Assembly (NCBI GenBank): GCA_029261855.1
Contig: JAJDAN010000048.1
Span: 62,001 to 126,000 of the forward strand
Direction: 5' to 3'
Source: Deltaproteobacteria bacterium
GTDB lineage: Bacteria; Myxococcota_A; UBA9160; UBA4427
DNA length: 64,000 nt
The notes under the pieces were generated by a model. That model had not been told where the DNA came from and searched no databases. It was given only the letters and a program-made list of their open reading frames with translations. This document shows positions 21,575 through 33,574 of the stretch, one piece after another (within the stretch, counting starts at the first letter, position 1; each line of letters begins with the position of its first letter). Made by a program: the position numbers and the translations under genes.

Positions 21575-22780
21575 ATGCCGGGTCCCATGGAAGGTGTGAA
21601 GGTGGTCGAACTCGGCGTCTGGGTCGCGGGCCCTGCCGCGGGTGGGATCCTGTCGGACTGGGGGGCCGACGTCGTGAAGATCGAGCCTCCCGGAATCGGT
21701 GACCCCGCGCGCACCTTCCAGCGCATGCTCGGCGCGGACCTGCCCTTCAACCCGGTCTTCGAGAACGACAATCGCAGCAAGCGCAGCATCGTCATCGACC
21801 TGAGCACCGAACGCGGCAAAGGCCTCGCCCTCGAGCTGCTCGACGACGCAGACGTCTTCGTCACCAACGTGCGGCAGAAGGCGCTCGCCCGTCTCGGCCT
21901 CGATTCGGATTCACTGCTAGCGCGCAACCCGCGCCTCGTCTACGGCATGATCACCGGCTACGGGCTCGAGGGTCCCGACGCCGATCGCGCCGCCTACGAC
22001 ATCGCGGGCTTCTGGGCTCGGTCCGGCATCGCCGCGAGCCTGACCTCGCCGGGCCACCACCCGCCGTTCCAGCGCGGGGGCATGGGCGACCACAACGCCG
22101 GTCTCGCTGCTGCCGGCGCCATCTCGGCCGCGCTCTTCTCGCGCGAGAAGACGGGCAAAGGGCAGATGGTGAGCACGTCGCTCCTGCGCGAGGGCATCTA
22201 CACCCTGAGCTTCGATCTTTCCCTGGCCGCGCGCTTCGGCGTGCCGCTGCAGGTGGCCGACCGCAAGTCCATGGGCAACCCGTGCATCAACAACTACTCG
22301 GACAAGGACGGTCGCTGGTTCTGGATCGTCGGGCTCGAGGCGGAACGCCATTGGCCGCCCCTGGCGCGTGTCGCGGGTCACCCGGAATGGATCGACGACC
22401 CGCGTTTCGCGACCGCCGCCGACCGGGCCCAGAACGCGGCGGTGTTGATCGCCGAACTCGACGCCATCTTCGCCACCCGGACTCGTGAGGAATGGAGCAA
22501 GGTCTTCGATACCGAGGAGGACTTCTGGTGGGCGCCGGTGCAGACGACGGAGGAAGTCCTGGCGGACCCCCAGGTGCTCGCGTCCGGCGGCCTCGTGGCC
22601 GTCCCGGATGGCGACGGTACGACCCTGCTGCCGGCGACACCGTGCGACTTCCAAGGCACGCCGTGGGCACCGCGGGCCATGGCGCCGGGACACGGCGAGC
22701 ACAGCGACGAGATCCTGCGCGAGCTCGGCCGGTCGGACGACGAGATCGCCGCGCTGCGCGCGGAGTCGATCGTCGCATGA
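21575..22780 (+). CDS. CaiB/BaiF family III CoA-transferase
   Basis: A 401-residue single-domain CoA-transferase, ATG preceded by GAGGAGGGC. The N-terminus VKVVELGVWVAGPAAGGILSD, VVKIEPP, the segment ENDNRSKRSIVIDL and the GMGDHNAG motif with the likely catalytic aspartate define the family. Members form interlocked dimers and move CoA between carboxylic acids without free energy cost. The TGA stop overlaps the ATG of the following secreted SBP56-like gene, an unusual coupling of a cytosolic CoA enzyme to an exported protein. Confidence 0.92.
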   Translation: MPGPMEGVKVVELGVWVAGPAAGGILSDWGADVVKIEPPGIGDPARTFQRMLGADLPFNPVFENDNRSKRSIVIDLSTERGKGLALELLDDADVFVTNVRQKALARLGLDSDSLLARNPRLVYGMITGYGLEGPDADRAAYDIAGFWARSGIAASLTSPGHHPPFQRGGMGDHNAGLAAAGAISAALFSREKTGKGQMVSTSLLREGIYTLSFDLSLAARFGVPLQVADRKSMGNPCINNYSDKDGRWFWIVGLEAERHWPPLARVAGHPEWIDDPRFATAADRAQNAAVLIAELDAIFATRTREEWSKVFDTEEDFWWAPVQTTEEVLADPQVLASGGLVAVPDGDGTTLLPATPCDFQGTPWAPRAMAPGHGEHSDEILRELGRSDDEIAALRAESIVA

Positions 22781-24093
22781 AGCCCGGGGCGTGGGTGCCG
22801 AGACAGGCCGTCGTCGTGGTCGCGATGCTCGCCGCAGCGCTCGCTGTGGTCGGGGTGGGAGGCGCTGTCCACGCGGACGAGGTGGGTCAGTCACCGTATG
22901 TTCCCAACATCGTCGGTCAGGAGGACTTCCTCTACGTCTGGACCCAGGGCGTGGACGGGCTGGGCGACGGGTCGGACAAGCTCGTGACCCTGGGCGCCAA
23001 TCCCGACCTGCCGCACTACGGCGAGGTGATCGCGTCGGTGTCTGTTGGCGGGCGGCACGGGGCGCATCACGGCGGCTTTACCGACGATCGACGCCAGCTG
23101 TGGGTGGGGGGCGTGGAAGACAGTCGCATCTTCATCTTCGACGTCGCGAGCGACCCCGCGAATCCGGAGCTGCTGCACAGCATCGTCGACTTCCCCGAGC
23201 GCAGCGGCGGAGTGGTCGGCCCGTATACCTTTCTCGCTCTGCCCGGGTCGATGTTGATCAGTGGCCTGTCGAACACCCGGGACGGCGGCGTGAAGACCGG
23301 ACTCGTCGAGTTCACGAATCGCGGGGAGTTCGTTCGCACCACCTGGATGCCCGAGGGAGCCGTGCACGGCGCCGACGTGGCCGTCAACCCGCGCCTCAAC
23401 CGGATGCTCACGGGGTCCTTCACCGGTCGCAGCACCTACACGCGAGACCTGCGCGAGCTGATGGCGAACCCCGATTTGCTGGAGAGCTTCGGAAGCACGG
23501 TGGTCGTGTGGGATCTCCACGTCCGCAAGCCCGTGCAGATCCTCGAAGTGCCGGGTGCGGCCGTGGAGATTCGTTGGGCGCTGCGGCCGCGCCACGATTA
23601 CGCCTTCGCCGTGACCGCGCTCGGATCACAGCTGTGGGGCGTCTTCCGTCAGACCGACGGCACCTTTCGGGCGAAGCGGCTCGCCGACATCGGAGACCCG
23701 TCGAGCCGCCCGCTTCCCGTTGACCTGAGCCTGTCGTCCAACGATCGCTACCTGTTCGTGGCGAGCTTCCGCGACGGGGGAGTGCGGGTGTTCGACGTCT
23801 CGGACCCGGACGAGCCGGAAAAGATCCTGGCGCAGAAGATCGGGTCCCAGCTGGGCAGCGTCGCGCAGAGCTGGGATGGCGAGCGTGTCTACTTCTCGTC
23901 TTCGCTACTGCCCAACTGGGACGGACGCGGCGAGTCCGAGGAGCAGTTCGTGCGCGCCTTCTCCTTCGACGGCGAGGATCTCGAGCCGCTGTTCTCCGTC
24001 GACTTCGCGAGGCTGGGCCTGGGCAATCCGCACGGGATGTACTTCGGCTCGCTCTCGTTGTACAAGGGACGGGTGGCGGGTGTGAGCCGCTAG
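22777..24093 (+). CDS. Exported selenium-binding protein 56 / methanethiol oxidase homologue
   Basis: A 438-residue protein with an N-terminal signal peptide (VVVVAMLAAALAVVGVGGAVHADE). The mature part is a seven-bladed propeller of the SBP56 family: DFLYVWT, the HGAHHGGFTDDRRQLWVGG segment, LPVDLSLSSNDRYLFVASF with GGVRVFDVSDPDEPEKI, and QSWDGERVYFSSSLLPNWD near the end. Bacterial members include periplasmic copper methanethiol oxidase. Unlike human SELENBP1, which is named for a reactive cysteine, this protein contains no cysteine at all. Role in sulfur compound oxidation is possible; a different oxidase activity cannot be excluded. Confidence 0.8.
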   Translation: MKPGAWVPRQAVVVVAMLAAALAVVGVGGAVHADEVGQSPYVPNIVGQEDFLYVWTQGVDGLGDGSDKLVTLGANPDLPHYGEVIASVSVGGRHGAHHGGFTDDRRQLWVGGVEDSRIFIFDVASDPANPELLHSIVDFPERSGGVVGPYTFLALPGSMLISGLSNTRDGGVKTGLVEFTNRGEFVRTTWMPEGAVHGADVAVNPRLNRMLTGSFTGRSTYTRDLRELMANPDLLESFGSTVVVWDLHVRKPVQILEVPGAAVEIRWALRPRHDYAFAVTALGSQLWGVFRQTDGTFRAKRLADIGDPSSRPLPVDLSLSSNDRYLFVASFRDGGVRVFDVSDPDEPEKILAQKIGSQLGSVAQSWDGERVYFSSSLLPNWDGRGESEEQFVRAFSFDGEDLEPLFSVDFARLGLGNPHGMYFGSLSLYKGRVAGVSR

Positions 24094-24130: not shown

Positions 24131-24147
24131 GTGGGCTAATTTCCCAC
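24131..24147. promoter_or_regulatory. Operator-like palindrome at the start of the DUF6502 gene
   Basis: GTGGGCTAATTTCCCAC, matching the GTGGGAA-N3-TTCCCAC palindromes at 26821 and 26854 in 15 of 17 positions against the latter. It ends four bases before the ATG at 24152, so a bound protein would block transcription or translation start. No separate Shine-Dalgarno is visible, suggesting a short or leaderless mRNA. Confidence 0.7.
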
Positions 24148-24151
24148 GCCG

Positions 24152-25003
24152 ATGCCTGCCACTCCTCAGCCGCGTCCGGGCCCGACCCCGCACCCCGAGC
24201 CGCCTCCGGCCCTGGTGTCCGCCCTGCGGCGGATGCTCGTGCCCCTCGCGCGTCTGCTGCTGGCCCACGGCGTCACCCAGCCCTTCCTCGCCGGTCTGCT
24301 CAAGGGTGTCTACGTCGAGGTCGCCGAGCGCGAGTTCGCCATCGAAGGGCGCCCGCAGACCACCAGCCGCTTGAGCCTGCTCACCGGGATCCACCGCAAG
24401 GACGTGAAGCGCTTGCGCGAGGCGCCCGGCGAGTCCGTTGGCGTTCCGCGGTCCGTCTCCCTGGGTGCGCAGCTGGTGTCGCGTTGGGTGGGGCTCGACG
24501 CCTACCGGGACGAGAGTGGACCGCTGCCGTTGCCCCGTCAGATCCCGGCCGACGGGGGGCCGTCGTTCGAGGGTCTGGTGGCCTCGGTGAGCAAGGACAT
24601 CCGGCCCCGGGCGATTCTCGACGAGTGGCTGCGGCTCGGTGTCGCGACCCTCGACGAGGCCGACCGGGTCAGTCTGAACACCCGCGCCTTCGTGCCCGAG
24701 AAGGGGTTCGACGAGAAGGCCCACTATCTCGGGCGCAGCCTCGCGGACCATGTGGCGGCCGCGGGCCGGAACCTCACGGGCGGACAACCCCCGCTGCTCG
24801 AACGCAGCGTCTACTACGACGAGCTCCGGGAAGAATCGGTCGCCGAGCTGGCGGCGCTCGCCCGCCGGCTGGGCGAGCAGGCGCTCGAGACCGTCAATCG
24901 CCGAGCGCTCGAGCTGCAACAAGGCGACGCCGCGACGGACGCGGCCCGCCGCCGCATGCGCTTCGGGGTCTACTTCTACGAAGAGGGCGACGGCGATGAT
25001 TGA
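24152..25003 (+). CDS. DUF6502 family protein, candidate transcription regulator
   Basis: A 283-residue cytoplasmic protein. After a Pro-rich start it reads LLLAHGVTQPFLAGLLKGVYVEVAEREF and then RLSLLTGIHRKDVKRLRE (about residues 40-92), which looks like a helix-turn-helix with a recognition helix at TGIHRKDVKRLRE. The C-terminal part, with RAFVPEKGFDEKAHYLGRSLADH and ends FGVYFYEE, matches what I know of DUF6502 proteins. No activity has been assigned to the family to my knowledge. The gene overlaps the next (DUF5666) gene by eight bases and carries a palindrome at its own start that recurs twice in a promoter 2.7 kb downstream, so autoregulation and control of the neighbours are inferred. 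Confidence 0.8.
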   Translation: MPATPQPRPGPTPHPEPPPALVSALRRMLVPLARLLLAHGVTQPFLAGLLKGVYVEVAEREFAIEGRPQTTSRLSLLTGIHRKDVKRLREAPGESVGVPRSVSLGAQLVSRWVGLDAYRDESGPLPLPRQIPADGGPSFEGLVASVSKDIRPRAILDEWLRLGVATLDEADRVSLNTRAFVPEKGFDEKAHYLGRSLADHVAAAGRNLTGGQPPLLERSVYYDELREESVAELAALARRLGEQALETVNRRALELQQGDAATDAARRRMRFGVYFYEEGDGDD

Positions 25004-25859
25004 TCGCGGGATCGTCGTCTTCGTTGCCGCGCGGCGGGGGTGGATGGGTCTCCCGGTGGCGGCGATCCTTGCAGCCACCGTGCTTCTCGCGTTGGCTGCG
25101 CCGGGCGCCCGGGCCGCCGACGCGGGCTGCGGCGACGCGGGCTGGACCGAGGAGATCGTGTCCGCCAGCGGCGACGAGTCTGGACTGGGTGGAACGGGTG
25201 CGCGAGGCGACGATTCGGGGCTCGGCGGAAGCGGCGCTCGCGGCGACGACAGTGGCATCGGCGGTACCGGCGTGTTCGGGACCCTCTCGGCCGTGGGGAG
25301 CGTCTGCGTCAACGGGCAGCGCATCGGATTCGACGAGAACGTCGAGGTGGTGCTCGAGAAGGGCGTCGCGATCGGCGCCGCAAACCTGGCTGTCGGCCAG
25401 ACCGTATGGCTCGTCGCGCATCCGGCCGAAGCGGGACTCACGACGTCGAAGGTCTGGGTGCTGCCGGACGGCGTGGCGGGCGCGGCCGCTCACGCCTGGC
25501 TCGAGAGCCGCATCGACGCGTCCCCGGATCTCGCGTTCCTGTCCATCGAGGGTGTCGTGTCGAGCTGGCCCGACGGCGACCGCTTCGAACTCGAAGGAGT
25601 GCTCGTCGACGCGACAGCATCGCGCGAGCTGCGCGGGGCACTGGATGTCGCCGCACGGGTGCGGGTCAGCGGCGCGATCTCGCGCGATGGGCTGTTGCGT
25701 CCAGAGCGCATTTCCGTGCGGGTTCGACCGCCGGAACGCCCGTCCCGTCCCGTCGATCGGGCGCCTCGGATCGAGCGACCGCCGACCCAGGACCGGCCGA
25801 CACGGCCCGACTCGTCGGTGCGGCCGAATCGCCGGGACCGGGTGTCGCCGACGCCCTAG
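24996..25859 (+). CDS. Exported DUF5666 protein with Gly-Asp repeats
   Basis: A 287-residue protein starting inside the 3' end of the DUF6502 gene (ATG 24996). A signal peptide (WMGLPVAAILAATVLLALAAPGARAA) leads into three repeats of the form G(D/A)(D/R)SG(L/I)GG(T/S)G (about residues 58-90), then beta-rich DUF5666-like modules (GSVCVNGQRIGFDENVEVV; LSIEGVVSSWPDGDRFELEGVLVD). The tail is Pro/Arg-rich. DUF5666 modules resemble small OB-like beta barrels in secreted proteins. The GGTG repeats could bind calcium or act as a flexible linker. Co-occurrence with DUF6502 is, from memory, common. Confidence 0.8.
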   Translation: MIDRGIVVFVAARRGWMGLPVAAILAATVLLALAAPGARAADAGCGDAGWTEEIVSASGDESGLGGTGARGDDSGLGGSGARGDDSGIGGTGVFGTLSAVGSVCVNGQRIGFDENVEVVLEKGVAIGAANLAVGQTVWLVAHPAEAGLTTSKVWVLPDGVAGAAAHAWLESRIDASPDLAFLSIEGVVSSWPDGDRFELEGVLVDATASRELRGALDVAARVRVSGAISRDGLLRPERISVRVRPPERPSRPVDRAPRIERPPTQDRPTRPDSSVRPNRRDRVSPTP

Positions 25860-25872
25860 ACGCCCGCCGCGA

Positions 25873-26751
25873 TCAATCGCCGGACGGGGGCCGCACGGGT
25901 AGGGCGATCTGGATCTGGAAGCCGAACGCATAGTCCGGACTGCCATTCGAGAGGCCGGCGACCGCGTAGGGTGACAGGCGCAGGTCTCCGACGACTCCCG
26001 ATGACATCGCGGCAGACCCGAAGAACGACAGCTCGTGCCCGTCGTCCGCGCGCACCAGACCGTCACTGCCGGCGCGCTTCGAGATCGACTGTCGCCAGTC
26101 GTAGCCGACGCCGAGGCTCCATCCCGGGGACGGAATCCAGCTGACGCCGGCGGACGCGACGGCCCCGTTGCGCAGGTCGTAGGCGTTGGTGTCCTGCCCG
26201 ATGAACCGATATCCCCCGGACCCGTAGGGGACGAAGTCGCCGATGCGCTGGAACAGGGTTGCTTCCAGGCTCACGTCGGTCTCGCCGGTGCCGAGGCGGT
26301 GGCGCTCGCTGGCGGTGGGCACCTTGACCTGGACACCCCACTCGCTCGCCGGAAGCCAGGATGTGCGCGGATAGTAGAGGTAGGCGGCGCCGAGCAGGAT
26401 GTCCCCTAGGCCGCTCTCGCGTTCGGTTCCCGACACGCCGGACGTCAGCACGCCGTCGACGTAGACGAAAGGAACGATCGCGCGCAGTTCGAGCTGGTCT
26501 CGTGGCGTGGGGGTGGGCGCGAAGTCGTCGAACACGTACGCCAGGGAGAACGGCGCGTAGACCATCTCCGTCGCCTTGTCTTCGCCGTAGTCGCCCCGGC
26601 TGTAGTCGACGCCGAGCCCCACCCGCAGCTCTCCCTGGAGCCACCGGCCGAGTGGGTCGAGGGCGCTCGGGGTGTCGGCATCGGCGAAGGCCCGCCCGGA
26701 GCCCGCCAACGAGAGCGACCAGACGGCGACGAGCAGCAGGAGGCGGGTCAC
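25873..26751 (-). CDS. Outer membrane beta-barrel protein (phenol-degradation MetA-like transporter fold)
   Basis: A 292-residue protein with a signal peptide (LLLLVAVWSLSLAGSGRAFA) and GTG start. The remainder is alternating beta-strand sequence (ELRVGLGVDYSRGDY, LGDILLGAAYLYYP, WGVQVKVPTASER, SLGVGYDWRQSIS) that ends in a strand FGFQIQIALPV, as in the PF13557-type transporter or outer membrane channels. It is divergent from the small secreted protein at 26905, and the shared upstream region holds two operator-like palindromes. It may be the channel for whatever the locus handles. Confidence 0.78.
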   Translation of the reverse strand: MTRLLLLVAVWSLSLAGSGRAFADADTPSALDPLGRWLQGELRVGLGVDYSRGDYGEDKATEMVYAPFSLAYVFDDFAPTPTPRDQLELRAIVPFVYVDGVLTSGVSGTERESGLGDILLGAAYLYYPRTSWLPASEWGVQVKVPTASERHRLGTGETDVSLEATLFQRIGDFVPYGSGGYRFIGQDTNAYDLRNGAVASAGVSWIPSPGWSLGVGYDWRQSISKRAGSDGLVRADDGHELSFFGSAAMSSGVVGDLRLSPYAVAGLSNGSPDYAFGFQIQIALPVRPPSGD

Positions 26752-26815
26752 GGGGCAGGGTCCATTGGCAGAGAGAGGCGTTGGAGGCAGGTGGCAGCCC
26801 GAGGTCAGAAATCGC

Positions 26816-26870
26816 TTGACGTGGGAAAATTTCCCTCATAGTCTGGCATAGAGGTGGGAATATTTCCCAC
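26816..26870 (+). promoter_or_regulatory. Promoter with two operator palindromes
   Basis: A -35-like TTGACG (26816-26821) and a -10-like TAGTCT (26839-26844) are 17 bp apart and point to the gene at 26905. GTGGGAAAATTTCCCTC (26821-26837) fills the spacer and GTGGGAATATTTCCCAC (26854-26870) covers the likely start of the transcript. Site starts are 33 bp apart, about three helical turns, so two dimers could bind on the same face. The same motif lies at 24131. The layout predicts repression, possibly of the divergent barrel gene too. Confidence 0.72.
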
Positions 26871-26904
26871 GCATTGCATCTCGAGAAGCACAGAGGAGCC
26901 CCTC

Positions 26905-27411
26905 ATGCGTACTACCCATCCCATCCTGTTGCGAGCTGCCGGCGGCTTGCTGGCGTCCTTCCTGGTCTGCGTCTGCCTGCCGGCGACGAGCGCCGCACAG
27001 GAAGCCGTCGAGATTCCCGCGATGGTCGATTTCGAGCGATCGGCCGCCGAGCTGCGCGACCGGATCGAACGTCCGCCGGTGGACCCGGACCGGGCCGACA
27101 CCGCGGTGGTCCTCACCAACAGCGGCAATACCCGCGCCTACGCGATCTGCTGGGCGTTCGATGACGATGGCAAGCCCCTCGGTCGCACGCGCATCAAGAT
27201 CCCGCCGCTCGGCTTGCGTTGGGTGCTGGCGTCGGACCTGTCCAACGACCAGGACTTCATCGGCAGCGTGCGTTGCTACGTGTCGGGCAACCTGCACGGC
27301 AGTGCCGTGTTCTTCGGTCCGGGCATCACCGATCTACCGGTGCGGCCGGTCCCGCAGGTCGCCACCGCAACGGGGCACCGCATCGAGTTCCCGCTCGTCG
27401 CCCACTACTGA
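26905..27411 (+). CDS. Small exported protein of unknown function
   Basis: A 168-residue protein; ATG 26905 with AGAGGAG upstream. A signal peptide (LLRAAGGLLASFLVCVCLPATSAAQ) is followed by a beta-sandwich-like domain: TAVVLTNSGNTRAYAICWAFDDDGKPLGRTRIKIPPLGLRWVL (split in blocks here) and GSVRCYVSGNLHGSAVFFGPGITDLPV. The pattern resembles secreted proteins that display a cohesin or cupredoxin-like sandwich, but no family was named with certainty. It stands directly behind the double operator, so it is likely the main regulated output of the DUF6502 locus. Confidence 0.72.
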   Translation: MRTTHPILLRAAGGLLASFLVCVCLPATSAAQEAVEIPAMVDFERSAAELRDRIERPPVDPDRADTAVVLTNSGNTRAYAICWAFDDDGKPLGRTRIKIPPLGLRWVLASDLSNDQDFIGSVRCYVSGNLHGSAVFFGPGITDLPVRPVPQVATATGHRIEFPLVAHY

Positions 27412-27521: not shown

Positions 27522-30500
27522 CTAGAAGGGCATCCGGAACGTCGCGAGGACGGTGTGCGCGGTGGTCCGGTCTCCCACGAATGCGTCGTAGGCGATCTCG
27601 ATGCTGTTGCGGGTGCCGAAGGGCTGGAAGCTGACGCGGCCGCCGACGTTCGCGCCGTATTGGGCGTCCTCGCTGCGGACCCGAAGCTTCGGGGTCGTCG
27701 AGGGCGCACCCGTCAGACGGGCGTCGAAGTCCCGGTCGTAGCCGGTCCAGACCTGGCGCCAGCCGGCCTGGACCTGCGGGCGCCAGACGCCGTCCGCCCA
27801 TTCGAGCCAGTCCCCCATGTAGGCGTACTTGACGAGGGTCATGCCGATGCGAGCACCGGTGTCGGTGGCGACGAAGGACGTCGAGCGCGAGTCGATGTCG
27901 AGTCGCACGACGCCGGCGTTCGATTCCTGGATCGATTCCTGGAAGAGGTAGGTGTATTCGACGGCTGCGACGGGCTCGACCTCGAAGCCGACCAGCGAGA
28001 AGACATGGCCGACCTCGCCCGCGACCGTCACGCGGTCGCTGTCGTGGCTGCTGAGCGCGAGCCGGGAGAAGCCCGGGTACGACACGTCCCGATGCGTGGT
28101 GTGCCAGCCGTGCCCGTAGCCGACGCTCGCGCGCAGATGGGTGCCGCCGCTGTGATTCCAGGCGGCACCGAGGCCCAGCTCGAAGCTGGTGTAGGAACCG
28201 TCGCCATCGTTGTCGAGATCGAGAGCCGAGCGGCTCGTTCCGAGCAGCCCCGAAACGAGAAAGCCATCGCCGAAGCGCTGGTCCACGCCGAAGGCGATGC
28301 CGCCCCCGGCATGCGAGTAGTCGGGTTGACCCGCGCTGCCGTTGCGGTCGGCGAAGAGTCCGAAGCCGGCGACCCAGGGTGTGAGTCCGCGCGGTCCGCA
28401 GGGCGAGCGGGAAGCCTCGTCGGGTCGGTAGGGCGACACCAGCCGCTCGCAGCGCGGGGGTCGCTGGGCCAGCAGGTGCGCGTAGCGGGTGGCGGTGGCC
28501 AGGGCCGTGCTCGTCTGCGCGTCGTAGGCAGCGCCGTGCAACGAGTCGAGGGCATCTGCAGCCTGGTCGTTGGTGAGGGCGGGGAAGGTGTCGAGGAGGG
28601 ACTGGAAGTCCGGGCTGACACCGGCGGCGACGGCGTCGTCCAGATACTGCCCGACCCGGTGCTCGTCCGCGGAACGGCCGATGGGCTCGAAGCGTCTCGT
28701 CAGCTGAACGTCGACGAAATGGCCGGCGCCGGACCCGTAGGTCGGGATCCCGCGCAGGAAGGGCGAGGTCCCGTTGACGATCTCGACGTCGCCGAAGCGT
28801 CCGGCTCGCCCCGCGGAGGCGGTGAGCACCCGGTAGATGGGCTCGCCTGCGATGGGGCCCGGATCCGTCTTGACGAGCTGGAGCAGGCTCTGGGACCCGA
28901 GTGTCAGATTGCCGTCCACGTCCAGGCGCTCGTTGCTTCCGGCGCTGAACTCGGCTTCGACGACTCCGCCCTGGAAGTCGGCGTCGCCCTGCAGGCCGTT
29001 GATGCCGTCGAGCACGACGATGCCGGTGTCCGCGGTGCGGAGCGGAAGCGTGACGTCTGCCCCGGGCGCGTACAAGGCGCGGCCGTCTTCGACGCGTACG
29101 CCATTCGGCAGCGTCACGCCGTCTTCCAGGTGCAGCAGCCCGCCGTTCACGATGATCTCGTCCGCGACGTTCGCGGCGAGGTCGATGCGCAACTCTCCGT
29201 GGCTCGCGAAGATGCCGTCCGTGTAGCTTCCCGTGCCCGTCAAGGTCCACGTGTTCGTGTCGCCGGGGATTCCGACCACCAGATCCTCGAAGCCGACGCT
29301 GTTGCCGAGGTCGAAGCTCGCATTGACGGGGGCATCCGGGTCCGACTGCACGAGGAACAGCTGGTCGTCGCCGCCTTCGCCGTCGAGCGCACCGCCTACG
29401 TTGCTGCCGTCGCCCCAGCCGAATGCGTCGTTGCCGTCGCCCAGCAACACGTCGCCCTGGATGTCGCCGCGGTTGGTGACGGCGTCGATGGCGGTGCCAC
29501 CGCGGACGGCCACGCCGCCGGCGGACTCGATCAAGCCACCGGCAAGGTTCAAGGCGCTGCGCGTTTCGGGGTTCGTGGTGGATGACGCGTCGGCGAAGGC
29601 AATGCCCGCACCGACACCCGTACCGCCGCGAATGATGCCGCTGTTGCGGACGGTGGACTCGTCGCCGACGAGGCGAACGCCGACGCCGTCGGGCGAAGCG
29701 GTCGCGTCGAGAAGTCCTTCGTTCTCGATATCGACGCCGGCCGTGGCGAAGGCCGCGGCCGTGGCGTCGCCGGTGACTGTGACGGTGCCGGTGTTGATCA
29801 GCCGGGTGACCAACGTGGAGTCATTGCTCTGGCCGAAGAGCCCGCCGCCGTCCGCTCCGGCGACCGTGACCTGGCCCTCGTTTCGCGCGATGCCCCCCGC
29901 GTTCGCGACCAGGCCTGCCGAGCTGTCGCCGCTGACCGTGACGCTCCCGCTCGCTGCGTTGACGACCTCCCCCCCGGCGGCACCTAGGATGCCCGCCGTG
30001 AAGTCGCCCTGGACATCGACGACCCCCTGGTTGGTGGCGATGAGCGCTGCGCGCAGGCCGATGGATCCGTCGCCGGTCACCGTCGTCGTGCCGCTGTGGT
30101 CGAGGGTCTGGGCGGCGATGCCGATGGCTCCCGCACCGTTCACCTGTACGCTGCCCGAGGAGTTCGCGGTGGCTCCCGCCGCCGTCGCGCTGATGCCGAT
30201 CGCCGCGTCGCCCGTAGCCGTCGTGGTGCCGCTGTGGTCGACGGTCTGGGCGGCGATGCCGATGGCTCCCGCACCGTTCACCTGTACGCTGCCCGACGAG
30301 TTCGCGGTGCTTTGCGCCGCCGTCGCACTGATGCCGATTGCCGCGTCCCCCACCGCGCTGACGAGACCGTCGTTCACCACCGATCCGTTGGCACCCACCT
30401 GGATGCCGACCGCGTCGCCGCCGGTGATGCCTGGCGCCGCCAGCACCTGCCCGGTCGCCTCGTTGACGACCTCCCCGAAGCTGCGGAGGACGATGCCGCG

Positions 30501-30932
30501 GGATCCGCTGCCCGACGCGGAGAGGATGCCCGCGTTGGTCACGAGGTTGCGCCGGATCGGGTCTCCCGCCACACCGGACGCGCCCGAGATCGCTGTCTGG
30601 CCCCCCGTCGACGTGACGCTGCCGTTCTGCTCGATGACGACGACGTTGTTCTGCAGCAGCGCGATGGTCGCGCCAGAGCCGCCGGGGTTCTCGACGAGTG
30701 CGCCGGACTCGACCGTGATGTTCAGGTCATCGTCGGTCGGCGGGCGGACGTCCGGGAAGCCGTCGGAATCGGTCCCGGTACAGGTCACGTCGCTGCCGAC
30801 CTGTACGCACTGTGCGGACGCCGACATCGGCAACCCGGCGGCGATGAAGAGGATCGCCGCCGCCGATGCGCCTGCGCATCCTCTCGAGATTCTCGCCAAG
30901 ATCGGGGCTCTCCGTGCTGGACCTGCGGACAC
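27522..30932 (-). CDS. Autotransporter with repeated beta-helix passenger
   Basis: A type Va secreted protein of about 1136 residues. The frame is open further upstream; GTG 30932 gives a good signal peptide (basic start, then ASAAAILFIAAGLPMSASA), while ATG 31025 would add 31 residues. Neither has a clear ribosome site. The passenger (to about residue 800) is Gly/Ala/Val/Thr-rich with many G-x-(T/V)-T-x-(T/S)GD turns typical of a beta-helix, including two 46-residue repeats. The last 280 or so residues are the autotransporter barrel (TPWVAGFGLFADRNGS onwards) ending in the C-terminal Phe needed for BAM insertion. Probable surface adhesin. Confidence 0.87.
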   Translation of the reverse strand: MSAGPARRAPILARISRGCAGASAAAILFIAAGLPMSASAQCVQVGSDVTCTGTDSDGFPDVRPPTDDDLNITVESGALVENPGGSGATIALLQNNVVVIEQNGSVTSTGGQTAISGASGVAGDPIRRNLVTNAGILSASGSGSRGIVLRSFGEVVNEATGQVLAAPGITGGDAVGIQVGANGSVVNDGLVSAVGDAAIGISATAAQSTANSSGSVQVNGAGAIGIAAQTVDHSGTTTATGDAAIGISATAAGATANSSGSVQVNGAGAIGIAAQTLDHSGTTTVTGDGSIGLRAALIATNQGVVDVQGDFTAGILGAAGGEVVNAASGSVTVSGDSSAGLVANAGGIARNEGQVTVAGADGGGLFGQSNDSTLVTRLINTGTVTVTGDATAAAFATAGVDIENEGLLDATASPDGVGVRLVGDESTVRNSGIIRGGTGVGAGIAFADASSTTNPETRSALNLAGGLIESAGGVAVRGGTAIDAVTNRGDIQGDVLLGDGNDAFGWGDGSNVGGALDGEGGDDQLFLVQSDPDAPVNASFDLGNSVGFEDLVVGIPGDTNTWTLTGTGSYTDGIFASHGELRIDLAANVADEIIVNGGLLHLEDGVTLPNGVRVEDGRALYAPGADVTLPLRTADTGIVVLDGINGLQGDADFQGGVVEAEFSAGSNERLDVDGNLTLGSQSLLQLVKTDPGPIAGEPIYRVLTASAGRAGRFGDVEIVNGTSPFLRGIPTYGSGAGHFVDVQLTRRFEPIGRSADEHRVGQYLDDAVAAGVSPDFQSLLDTFPALTNDQAADALDSLHGAAYDAQTSTALATATRYAHLLAQRPPRCERLVSPYRPDEASRSPCGPRGLTPWVAGFGLFADRNGSAGQPDYSHAGGGIAFGVDQRFGDGFLVSGLLGTSRSALDLDNDGDGSYTSFELGLGAAWNHSGGTHLRASVGYGHGWHTTHRDVSYPGFSRLALSSHDSDRVTVAGEVGHVFSLVGFEVEPVAAVEYTYLFQESIQESNAGVVRLDIDSRSTSFVATDTGARIGMTLVKYAYMGDWLEWADGVWRPQVQAGWRQVWTGYDRDFDARLTGAPSTTPKLRVRSEDAQYGANVGGRVSFQPFGTRNSIEIAYDAFVGDRTTAHTVLATFRMPF
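30091..30366. repeat. Two 138-bp tandem repeats inside the autotransporter gene
   Basis: The block beginning CCGCTGTGGTCG at 30091 recurs at 30229 with only a few differences. Each unit encodes 46 residues with the core SSGSVQVNGAGAIGIAAQT. It adds whole rungs to the predicted passenger beta-helix and is a candidate for length variation between strains. Confidence 0.85.
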
Positions 30933-31111
30933 GGAGCGAGGGCTCCGCTGACTCGTGGGTGGCCTCGGAGTGGGGCTTGGAGTCAACCCTTGGGCACGGT
31001 TGCTGGGGAGGGCGGACTCTACCATAGGGCCGGAGCGGTCCCGGGTGGCTTCGCGCGCAGCAGAGAAGAAGGCGCTGTGCAGTCGATGCGCAGAGTGGAG
31101 ATCGGCCGCCC

Positions 31112-33574
31112 TCACAGGAAGCTCGGTCGGTCCCCCACCACCTTCGCTTCGCGCAGGGCTGCGCGTTCGTCTTCCGACAGACCCAGCTCGTCGCCGAGGA
31201 CTTCGTCGTTGTGCTGTCCGAGGGTCGGCGGAGGGGACCGGTGCAGGTTGGGACCGAAGGCCGAGAAGCGCATGGGGAAGCCGGGGTAGCGGGTGCTGCC
31301 CGTCTCCGGATGGATCAGCGTCTGATAGAAGCCGCGCGCCTCGAGCTGCGGGTTGGGCATGACCCGATGCGCGTTGATGACCTCGGCCGCGGGTACGCCC
31401 GCAGCGACCAGCAGGTCCGCGGCGTCTCGTCGCGATCGGTCCGCGAGCCAGGCGTCGAGTCGGGCGTCGATCTCGTCGTGGCGCGCGCGCCTGCCCTGGG
31501 CGTGAGACAGATCGTCGTCCCCGGCCCACGCGGGGTCACCCAGGGCATCGCGCAGGCACTGCCATTGCGCGTCGTTCGCGATCGCGATCGCCACGTACTG
31601 CTCGTCGTCTTCTCCGTCGGGCGCGCAGCGATAGACGCCCTGGGGTGCGGCGCCGGGGCCGCGGTTCTCCTGTCGCGTGAGAAGGGTTCCGTAGGCCGAG
31701 TGCTCGATGACCTGTTCGGCGGCGATGTTGAGCGCGTTCTCGATCAGCGGGACTTCGACGAGCTGTCCGCGCCCGGTGCGACGTCGGTCCTCGAGGGCCA
31801 TGAGCAACGCGAACACGGCCTGCATGCCGCCGGCGGGGTCGCAGGCGCCTCGGACCACCAGGGGCAGGTCCTCGTAGCCGGTGATCCAGGCCAGGCCGCT
31901 CGCCTGCTCGATGGTCATGGCGAAGCCCGTGCGGTCGCGCCACGGTCCGTCGAGCCCGAACGCGGGCATGCGCACCATGATGACGCGATCACTGAGCGCC
32001 CGGACATCGTCCCAGCCGAGGCCGAAGTTCTCGAGCACGCGGACCGAGTAGTTCTCGAGCACGACGTCCGCTTCGGCGATCAGCTGCTTCAGCAGCTGCA
32101 TGCCGCGTTCGCTGTCGAGCTGCAGCGTCACGTCGCGCTTGCCCGGATTGGCTCCAGCGAACACCGGCGACCATTCCCACAGCTTTTCTTTGGGGACGGC
32201 GCCCGCGAACCGCATGCCGTCCGGACGCTGGATGGATTCGATCTTGACGACGTCAGCGCCGAGATCTGCCAGATAGCAGGTGGCGAAGGGGCCGGCCCAG
32301 AAGGCGGTGAGGTCGACGATCCGAAGGCCAGCGAGGGGAAGCTCGGGTGCCGGTGCCCCGACCGCGGACTCGGCGTCGTGCTCCGCTGCCGACGCCCGGA
32401 CGGTCGCGCCGTCCGCATCGAGAGCGGGGGCCGGACCGAAGGGCCGTGTCGGCTGCGGGTCGGCGGCGCGCGCGTGAAGCCGGTAGGGGACCCGCGGCTG
32501 CAGGAAGCCACCGGCGGCCTTGGTGTAGACGCCCCGCGCGACCAGGTGGTCGACGTCCGGGAGGGTGCGGCCGTTGCCGACCGGCGCGACGGGAATGCGC
32601 AGCAGGCTTGCGAGCTCGACGATCTCGTCCACGCTGCGCTCGCGGGTCCAGCCCTGGATGATCTGGCGCATGAAGGGCAGGTGGTTCATGCGTCGACGGC
32701 CGTCGAGGTAGCTGTCGTCTTCGGCGACCTCGGGCTGGCCGATCAACGCGCAGAAGTCCTTCCATTGCTGACCGGTGATCGTGCAGAAGCCCACCCAGCC
32801 GTCTCGCGCCGGCTCGATGGACGGGATTTCCACGGACCGCGCCAGGTCTCCTCCGACCCACTGGCCGTTCAGATCGTGGTAGACGGTCATCGAGAGCAGG
32901 ATCGATTCGAACATCGAGACGTCGACATGCTGCCCGGCGCCTCCCGCCCGCGCCGCCAGCCACGCGGAAACGCTCCCGACGCCGGCGTAGATGCCCGCGA
33001 GCCACTCCCCGATGCGCCCGCCCGCGGCCACGGGTCGGCGGTCTCGCAGGCCCCGGTACCCGACGGACCCGGTCGCCGCCTGCAGGGTGAATTCGGTACT
33101 GGGTCGCTCGGCCCAGGGTCCGGTTGCGCCCCAGGCCGTGACCGACGTGACGCACAGTCGTGGATTCACGGTGTGGAGACTGTCGAAGTCGAGCCCGCGC
33201 GCCGCGGCACCCGCATGCGTCCAGTCGTGAACCAGCAGGTCGGCGTCGCGGGCGAGGTCGAGCAGCAGGCGGCGGTCGTCTGCGTTCGATACGTCCACCA
33301 CGGCGCTCTTCTTCGACGCATTCAGGAACTGGAAGAGGGCACCGTCCTGGCCCGGCGCCAGCTCCGTATCCGATGCGGTCCAGTGGCGTAGGGGGTCGCC
33401 GGCGGGCGTCTCGAGCTTCGTGACGTCGGCGCCGGCATCGACGAGGAGCTTCGTCGCGTAGGGGCCGGCGATCTGCTCGCTCAGGTCGAGAACCCGGAGT
33501 CCGGTCAGCGGCCAGGCGCCTTCGTTCGAGACGTTCTCTTTCGAGTCAGCATTCCCACCGGCCATGGGAGTCAT
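31112..33574 (-). CDS. Tandem double CaiB/BaiF CoA-transferase
   Basis: An 820-residue protein with two complete family III CoA-transferase domains in a row. The first starts at about residue 24 (VLDLSEQIAGPYATKLLVDAG, VTKLETP, FLNASKKSAVVD) and the second at about 415 (GLRIVDLTAFWAGPFATCYLADLG, VVKIES, KRDVTLQL). A Pro/Ala linker separates them. Family III enzymes normally form interlaced homodimers, so this single chain could make an internal pseudo-dimer. The usual catalytic Asp position differs between halves (GGRIGEWLAG in the first; CDPAGGMQAVF in the second), so possibly only one half is active. It begins 59 bp from the divergent receiver gene. Confidence 0.88.
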   Translation of the reverse strand: MTPMAGGNADSKENVSNEGAWPLTGLRVLDLSEQIAGPYATKLLVDAGADVTKLETPAGDPLRHWTASDTELAPGQDGALFQFLNASKKSAVVDVSNADDRRLLLDLARDADLLVHDWTHAGAAARGLDFDSLHTVNPRLCVTSVTAWGATGPWAERPSTEFTLQAATGSVGYRGLRDRRPVAAGGRIGEWLAGIYAGVGSVSAWLAARAGGAGQHVDVSMFESILLSMTVYHDLNGQWVGGDLARSVEIPSIEPARDGWVGFCTITGQQWKDFCALIGQPEVAEDDSYLDGRRRMNHLPFMRQIIQGWTRERSVDEIVELASLLRIPVAPVGNGRTLPDVDHLVARGVYTKAAGGFLQPRVPYRLHARAADPQPTRPFGPAPALDADGATVRASAAEHDAESAVGAPAPELPLAGLRIVDLTAFWAGPFATCYLADLGADVVKIESIQRPDGMRFAGAVPKEKLWEWSPVFAGANPGKRDVTLQLDSERGMQLLKQLIAEADVVLENYSVRVLENFGLGWDDVRALSDRVIMVRMPAFGLDGPWRDRTGFAMTIEQASGLAWITGYEDLPLVVRGACDPAGGMQAVFALLMALEDRRRTGRGQLVEVPLIENALNIAAEQVIEHSAYGTLLTRQENRGPGAAPQGVYRCAPDGEDDEQYVAIAIANDAQWQCLRDALGDPAWAGDDDLSHAQGRRARHDEIDARLDAWLADRSRRDAADLLVAAGVPAAEVINAHRVMPNPQLEARGFYQTLIHPETGSTRYPGFPMRFSAFGPNLHRSPPPTLGQHNDEVLGDELGLSEDERAALREAKVVGDRPSFL

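Follow-up and report, generated by a model that had tools for sequence, protein, structure and literature searches.

A conserved palindrome that follows DUF6502 proteins suggests an overlooked family of autoregulating helix-turn-helix repressors

What does a DUF6502 protein do? The question is raised by a locus in a 64,000-nucleotide stretch of bacterial DNA (the window, by which we mean this whole stretch), where one palindrome stands beside a DUF6502 gene and recurs twice in a promoter further downstream. Pfam assigns no function to the family (PF20112), and our literature search found no paper naming DUF6502 or its motif, with reports in subscription journals being possible; this agrees with the earlier note on this DNA, which regarded the protein as having no known function. 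The operator, promoter geometry and regulon are newly proposed here. The features of the locus are as follows.

24131 to 24147, plus strand: operator 1, GTGGGCTAATTTCCCAC, a putative autoregulatory site (shuffle test; orthologous sites upstream of other DUF6502 genes)
24152 to 25003, plus strand: DUF6502 (PF20112) gene, subfamily A, 283 aa, Pfam E 1.7e-36, a proposed helix-turn-helix repressor
24389 to 24421, plus strand: predicted recognition helix IHRKDVKRLRE, residues about 80-90 (model and alignment)
25000 to 25859, plus strand: DUF5666-like exported protein with GDDSGLGGTG repeats, whose gene overlaps the DUF6502 stop codon; the gene pair is conserved
25873 to 26751, minus strand: Phenol_MetA_deg outer-membrane protein (Pfam), divergent from operators 2 and 3
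26816 to 26821, plus strand: -35 element TTGACG, read from the sequence, its last G being the first base of operator 2; the same offset is seen at 37 sites
26821 to 26837, plus strand: operator 2, GTGGGAAAATTTCCCTC, which occupies the whole 17-bp spacer of the promoter
26839 to 26844, plus strand: -10 element TAGTCT, read from the sequence; many promoters with paired sites have TAnnnT in this position
26854 to 26870, plus strand: operator 3, GTGGGAATATTTCCCAC, which covers the expected start site and lies 33 bp from operator 2
26905 to 27411, plus strand: putative target gene behind operators 2 and 3, an exported 168-aa protein with its ATG at 26905

The three palindromes in the window are real and none would be expected by chance. 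The pattern GTGGGMWNNNTTCCCWC was present at 24131, 26821 and 26854 (the last copy matching on both strands), i.e. three times, compared with a mean count of 0.00 in 100 dinucleotide shuffles of the window. A scan of the plus strand with the site matrix reached at least 5 bits at these three places only, with scores of 24.3, 26.7 and 30.6. Whereas the matrix was run on the window and on upstream stretches, the whole 6.96-Mb genome was scanned by pattern matching; perfect GTGGGNWNNNTTCCCWC was found only at the window sites and at one extra copy with a GC-rich centre (C66:31669), and the stricter AT-centred palindrome at 24131 and 26854 only. One-mismatch matches elsewhere in the genome were not clearly above the reversed-pattern control, and two of them (C38:206515 and C84:46107) were indistinguishable from chance. 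The pattern search and shuffles thus bear out the earlier note's placing of a GTGGG-type palindrome at these positions, one copy abutting the DUF6502 start codon (it ends 4 bp before the ATG at 24152); our coordinates also agree with its placing of the other two in the spacer and start region of a TTGACG-N17-TAGTCT promoter, and the motif, which it had asked about, is not common in the genome.

Palindromes are by nature inverted repeats and could be RNA hairpins or terminators, or chance occurrences. However, there was no terminator-like site in the region, operator 2 lies between the -35 and -10 elements and so would not be transcribed from that promoter, and the AT-rich centre, fixed spacing and promoter offset are conserved across two phyla. 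A chance or hairpin origin is contradicted by this conservation, by the shuffles and by the terminator search, and its probability is negligible.

Is the DUF6502 protein a plausible DNA-binding protein? The window protein matches the PF20112 profile over its full length (residues 20-280; 125.9 bits against a curated cut-off of 27). DUF6502 homology starts near residue 17, so the start codon is not certain, and operator 1 may for this reason cover either the promoter or the 5' end of the gene. The structure model of the full-length protein was weak (pLDDT 70, pTM 0.38), with a clear helix-turn-helix at residues 71-90, i.e. two helices (71-78 and 82-90) joined by a short turn, with a pLDDT of about 83-90, in agreement with the helix-turn-helix-like segment proposed previously. 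When the N-terminal 167 residues were modelled alone (mean pLDDT 84.9, pTM 0.50), a second, winged-helix-like unit (helix-helix-strand-strand) appeared, so that a tandem HTH-like arrangement is predicted by the models. Residues of about 41-100 weakly resemble the helix-turn-helix of IclR or sigma region 4, and residues 100-180 a MarR-type winged helix (Z about 6-7); the structures compared were PcaR (8ejv), SlyA (3q5f) and PecS (8ylh), which are IclR- and MarR-type winged-helix regulators. In the fold search with the DUF6502 models no known regulator was matched with confidence (best Z about 7); helix-turn-helix domains from several families were hit, with scores too low to place the protein in any one of them. 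Foldseek gave no E-value under 0.1, and a Pfam scan of 16 DUF6502 members with E up to 1 reported no IclR or MarR family. Searching PDB sequences found no relative of note (best E 0.012, for a stretch of the C-terminal half), and PHROGs nothing useful. As in the class of HTH one-component regulators, a predicted helix-turn-helix and a conserved operator at own and target promoters were both found.

The relatives sampled were fifteen taken from a genome collection and roughly 80 obtained from whole genomes. Upstream of orthologous DUF6502 genes of Myxococcota as well as alpha-, beta- and gammaproteobacteria we found GTGGGAAWWWTTCCCAC; its distance to the gene is 50-160 bp in Rhodospirillaceae, Gallionellaceae and other proteobacteria, where there are often two copies. 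A tree of 78 DUF6502 proteins has two deep subfamilies, A and B, with the window protein in A. Within 400 bp upstream, 40 of 57 subfamily A genes have a site and some A clades have none; for several siteless A genes the palindrome stands farther upstream, where a longer gene cluster begins. Among loci unused in building the matrix, 25 of 26 A-type loci passed (score of at least 10 within 400 bp upstream; L182 was the sole failure) compared with 0 of 520 control stretches. The recurrence near other DUF6502 genes for which the earlier note had suggested searching therefore holds in two phyla. Sites precede DUF6502 in Azospirillum lipoferum 4B, Methylocystis iwaonis and Pseudoroseomonas cervicalis, in all of which RefSeq annotates a DUF6502-DUF5666 pair, and in Microvirga lotononidis. 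In Rhizobium etli no good site precedes the DUF6502 copy, and ATGGGAAAATTTCCCAT stands behind the DUF5666 gene; in strain IE4771 the pair (L199 3935-5865) directly follows the flagellar hook genes flgE and flgK on a plasmid.

A motif conserved next to a gene need not be bound by that gene's product, and the palindrome could belong to an unlinked regulator of which DUF6502 is merely one conserved target. However, the motif tracks the presence of DUF6502 in two separate sets of genomes. Of 118 relatives, 36 have an A-type DUF6502, and 18 of these contain strict sites, compared with 3 of the other 82 (p 8.7e-9); for 199 relatives of a Gallionellaceae genome the figures were 14 of 34 with DUF6502 and 3 of 165 without it (p 6.3e-10); both p-values are too small given the relatedness of the genomes, and the two sets agree. 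The reversed-pattern control was found in 0 genomes of either set, and one of the three exceptions among the 199 is a site in an apparent tRNA gene. No A-type site was found in the seven genomes that have only subfamily B.

Operator and protein also change together. When exact TGGG-Nn-CCCA was counted upstream of DUF6502 genes, we found a spacer of 7 at 20 sites in subfamily A (control 0.96) and of 8 at 12 sites in subfamily B (control 0), with 0-1 sites for each other spacer; the spacer of 8 was seen again in the held-out B loci L167 and L168. The B operator, TTGGG-N8-CCCAA (sites read TTGGGAWWWWWWTCCCAA), thus differs from that of A by one added spacer base and by the outer base, and the predicted recognition helix reads G(V/I)HRKDVKRL in A compared with GLTRKE(A/V)SRL in B. 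Such co-variation of spacer and outer base with subfamily would not be expected of a bystander gene, which argues that DUF6502 itself is the binder; the operator follows the protein, and this is the strongest evidence on the binder's identity. DUF6502 also has the predicted helix-turn-helix. A different binder is rejected because operator and subfamily change together, and we consider it very unlikely. One group of betaproteobacterial A proteins has GTGTG half-sites. The window's own genome has a second DUF6502 gene, of subfamily B (L137, C11:82274-83062; other B loci are L025-L043), with a degenerate site only.

The distance between paired sites is mostly 28-35 bp and peaks at 30 and 33, and a TTGACA-like hexamer stands at an offset of exactly -5 from 37 sites, compared with a mean of 2.0 at other offsets. 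The regular unit is TTGAC-GTGGGAAWWWTTCCCAC-TAnnnT with a second GTGGG...CCCAC coming within the next 6-12 bp or so; the first palindrome exactly fills the 17-bp spacer and the second covers the start site. In the MerR family the operator also lies inside the promoter spacer, as it does here, and DUF6502 might by analogy bind the palindrome but activate, or activate or repress depending on a ligand; several alphaproteobacteria, in which the two sites of a pair are separated by 60-66 bp that include a promoter-like stretch, would fit this. MerR promoters have spacers of 19-20 bp, whereas that of most paired-site promoters, including the window's, is 17 bp and already optimal; a second operator lies over the start, many of the -35 and -10 elements come so close to consensus that no activator is required, and Pfam found no MerR domain in DUF6502. 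We rejected MerR-like activation on the spacer length, and regard it as unlikely.

Repression is the natural reading of the paired sites because polymerase and a protein bound there would exclude each other. We consider it highly likely, from the comparison of sequences, that DUF6502 is a sequence-specific HTH-containing repressor of its own operon and of the gene at 26905, acting via these palindromes; physical binding and the sign of regulation we infer. The protein would bind GTGGGAAWWWTTCCCAC, in the simplest case as a dimer that places a recognition helix in each half-site. At operator 1 it would repress its own operon, in which it is probably cotranscribed with the exported DUF5666-type protein; at operators 2 and 3, about three helical turns apart, it would keep RNA polymerase off the exported-protein gene. 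Cooperativity between the sites, dimerisation and a signal that lifts repression would belong to the same scheme. TetR/tetO and the phage repressors are small repressors that control their own genes, with operator pairs lying over a promoter. The proposed circuit resembles them in its palindromes over the -35/-10 elements and the start, its apparently autoregulated gene and its pairs at about three turns, and differs in that no sequence membership was found for DUF6502 and in that its targets would be exported proteins. Autoregulation with a small regulon is well supported by the genome comparisons as a prediction, and DUF6502 is very probably an overlooked repressor family.

A fuller reading is more tentative, and we give it a fairly low chance: two consecutive HTH-like domains would silence exported, often repeat-rich envelope proteins, the exported DUF5666-type partner on the same transcript would signal back the condition of protein export or the envelope, and at the family split the spacing of the operator (7 or 8 bp) would have been re-set, like its outer base, together with the recognition helix. 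The A/B split would then be a natural experiment on joint change of regulator and operator. More generally, the proposal offers a first testable function for a domain family of at least two phyla that has none assigned and is also present in cultivated bacteria (Azospirillum, Rhizobium, Methylocystis, Microvirga), the proposed site lets regulons be listed by genome scanning, and DUF5666 and several unnamed exported proteins become linked to one putative switch.

Behind paired sites we found DUF6502, 26905 homologues and further exported proteins, many of which carry charged or TPAT-type repeats. The 26905 homologues account for 10 further paired-operator promoters, among them promoters on contigs without DUF6502. 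This family (about 160-180 aa, exported, signature ALVFTN...GLRYxLASDLS...GSAVFxGPGxTDLP; L141, L142, L148, L149 and others) is the commonest paired-operator target and has no Pfam name, a Pfam scan finding no family above threshold. Exported low-complexity repeat proteins (DRREDVRDRRED, PERPDRPERPDR, LRGDGSVDDTQPGATPATPATP) also stand behind the TTGAC-palindrome-TAnnnT unit (L061, L067, L068, L095, L110, L124, L126, L145, L194).

DUF6502 is conserved beside genes of DUF5666, a domain that four papers mention; DUF5666 was matched in relatives of the 25000-25859 protein, the window copy being below detection. At L057, L058, L064, L096 and L108 DUF6502 is followed by a gene for an exported protein with GIGGTG repeats, which is DUF5666 in the tested relatives. 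Operator control of the minus-strand Phenol_MetA_deg gene is uncertain; at L056 a site also precedes its homologue. An SBP56/methanethiol oxidase-like protein lies at 22780-24093 (545.7 bits, curated cut-off 650), and a large autotransporter with repeats in its passenger part lies at 27525-31529 on the minus strand. Elsewhere, a strict site stands at the start of a large exported protein, C25-type peptidase-like by eye (L139 6387 and L140 6090; one sequence, present on two contigs of genome G079 in opposite orientations).
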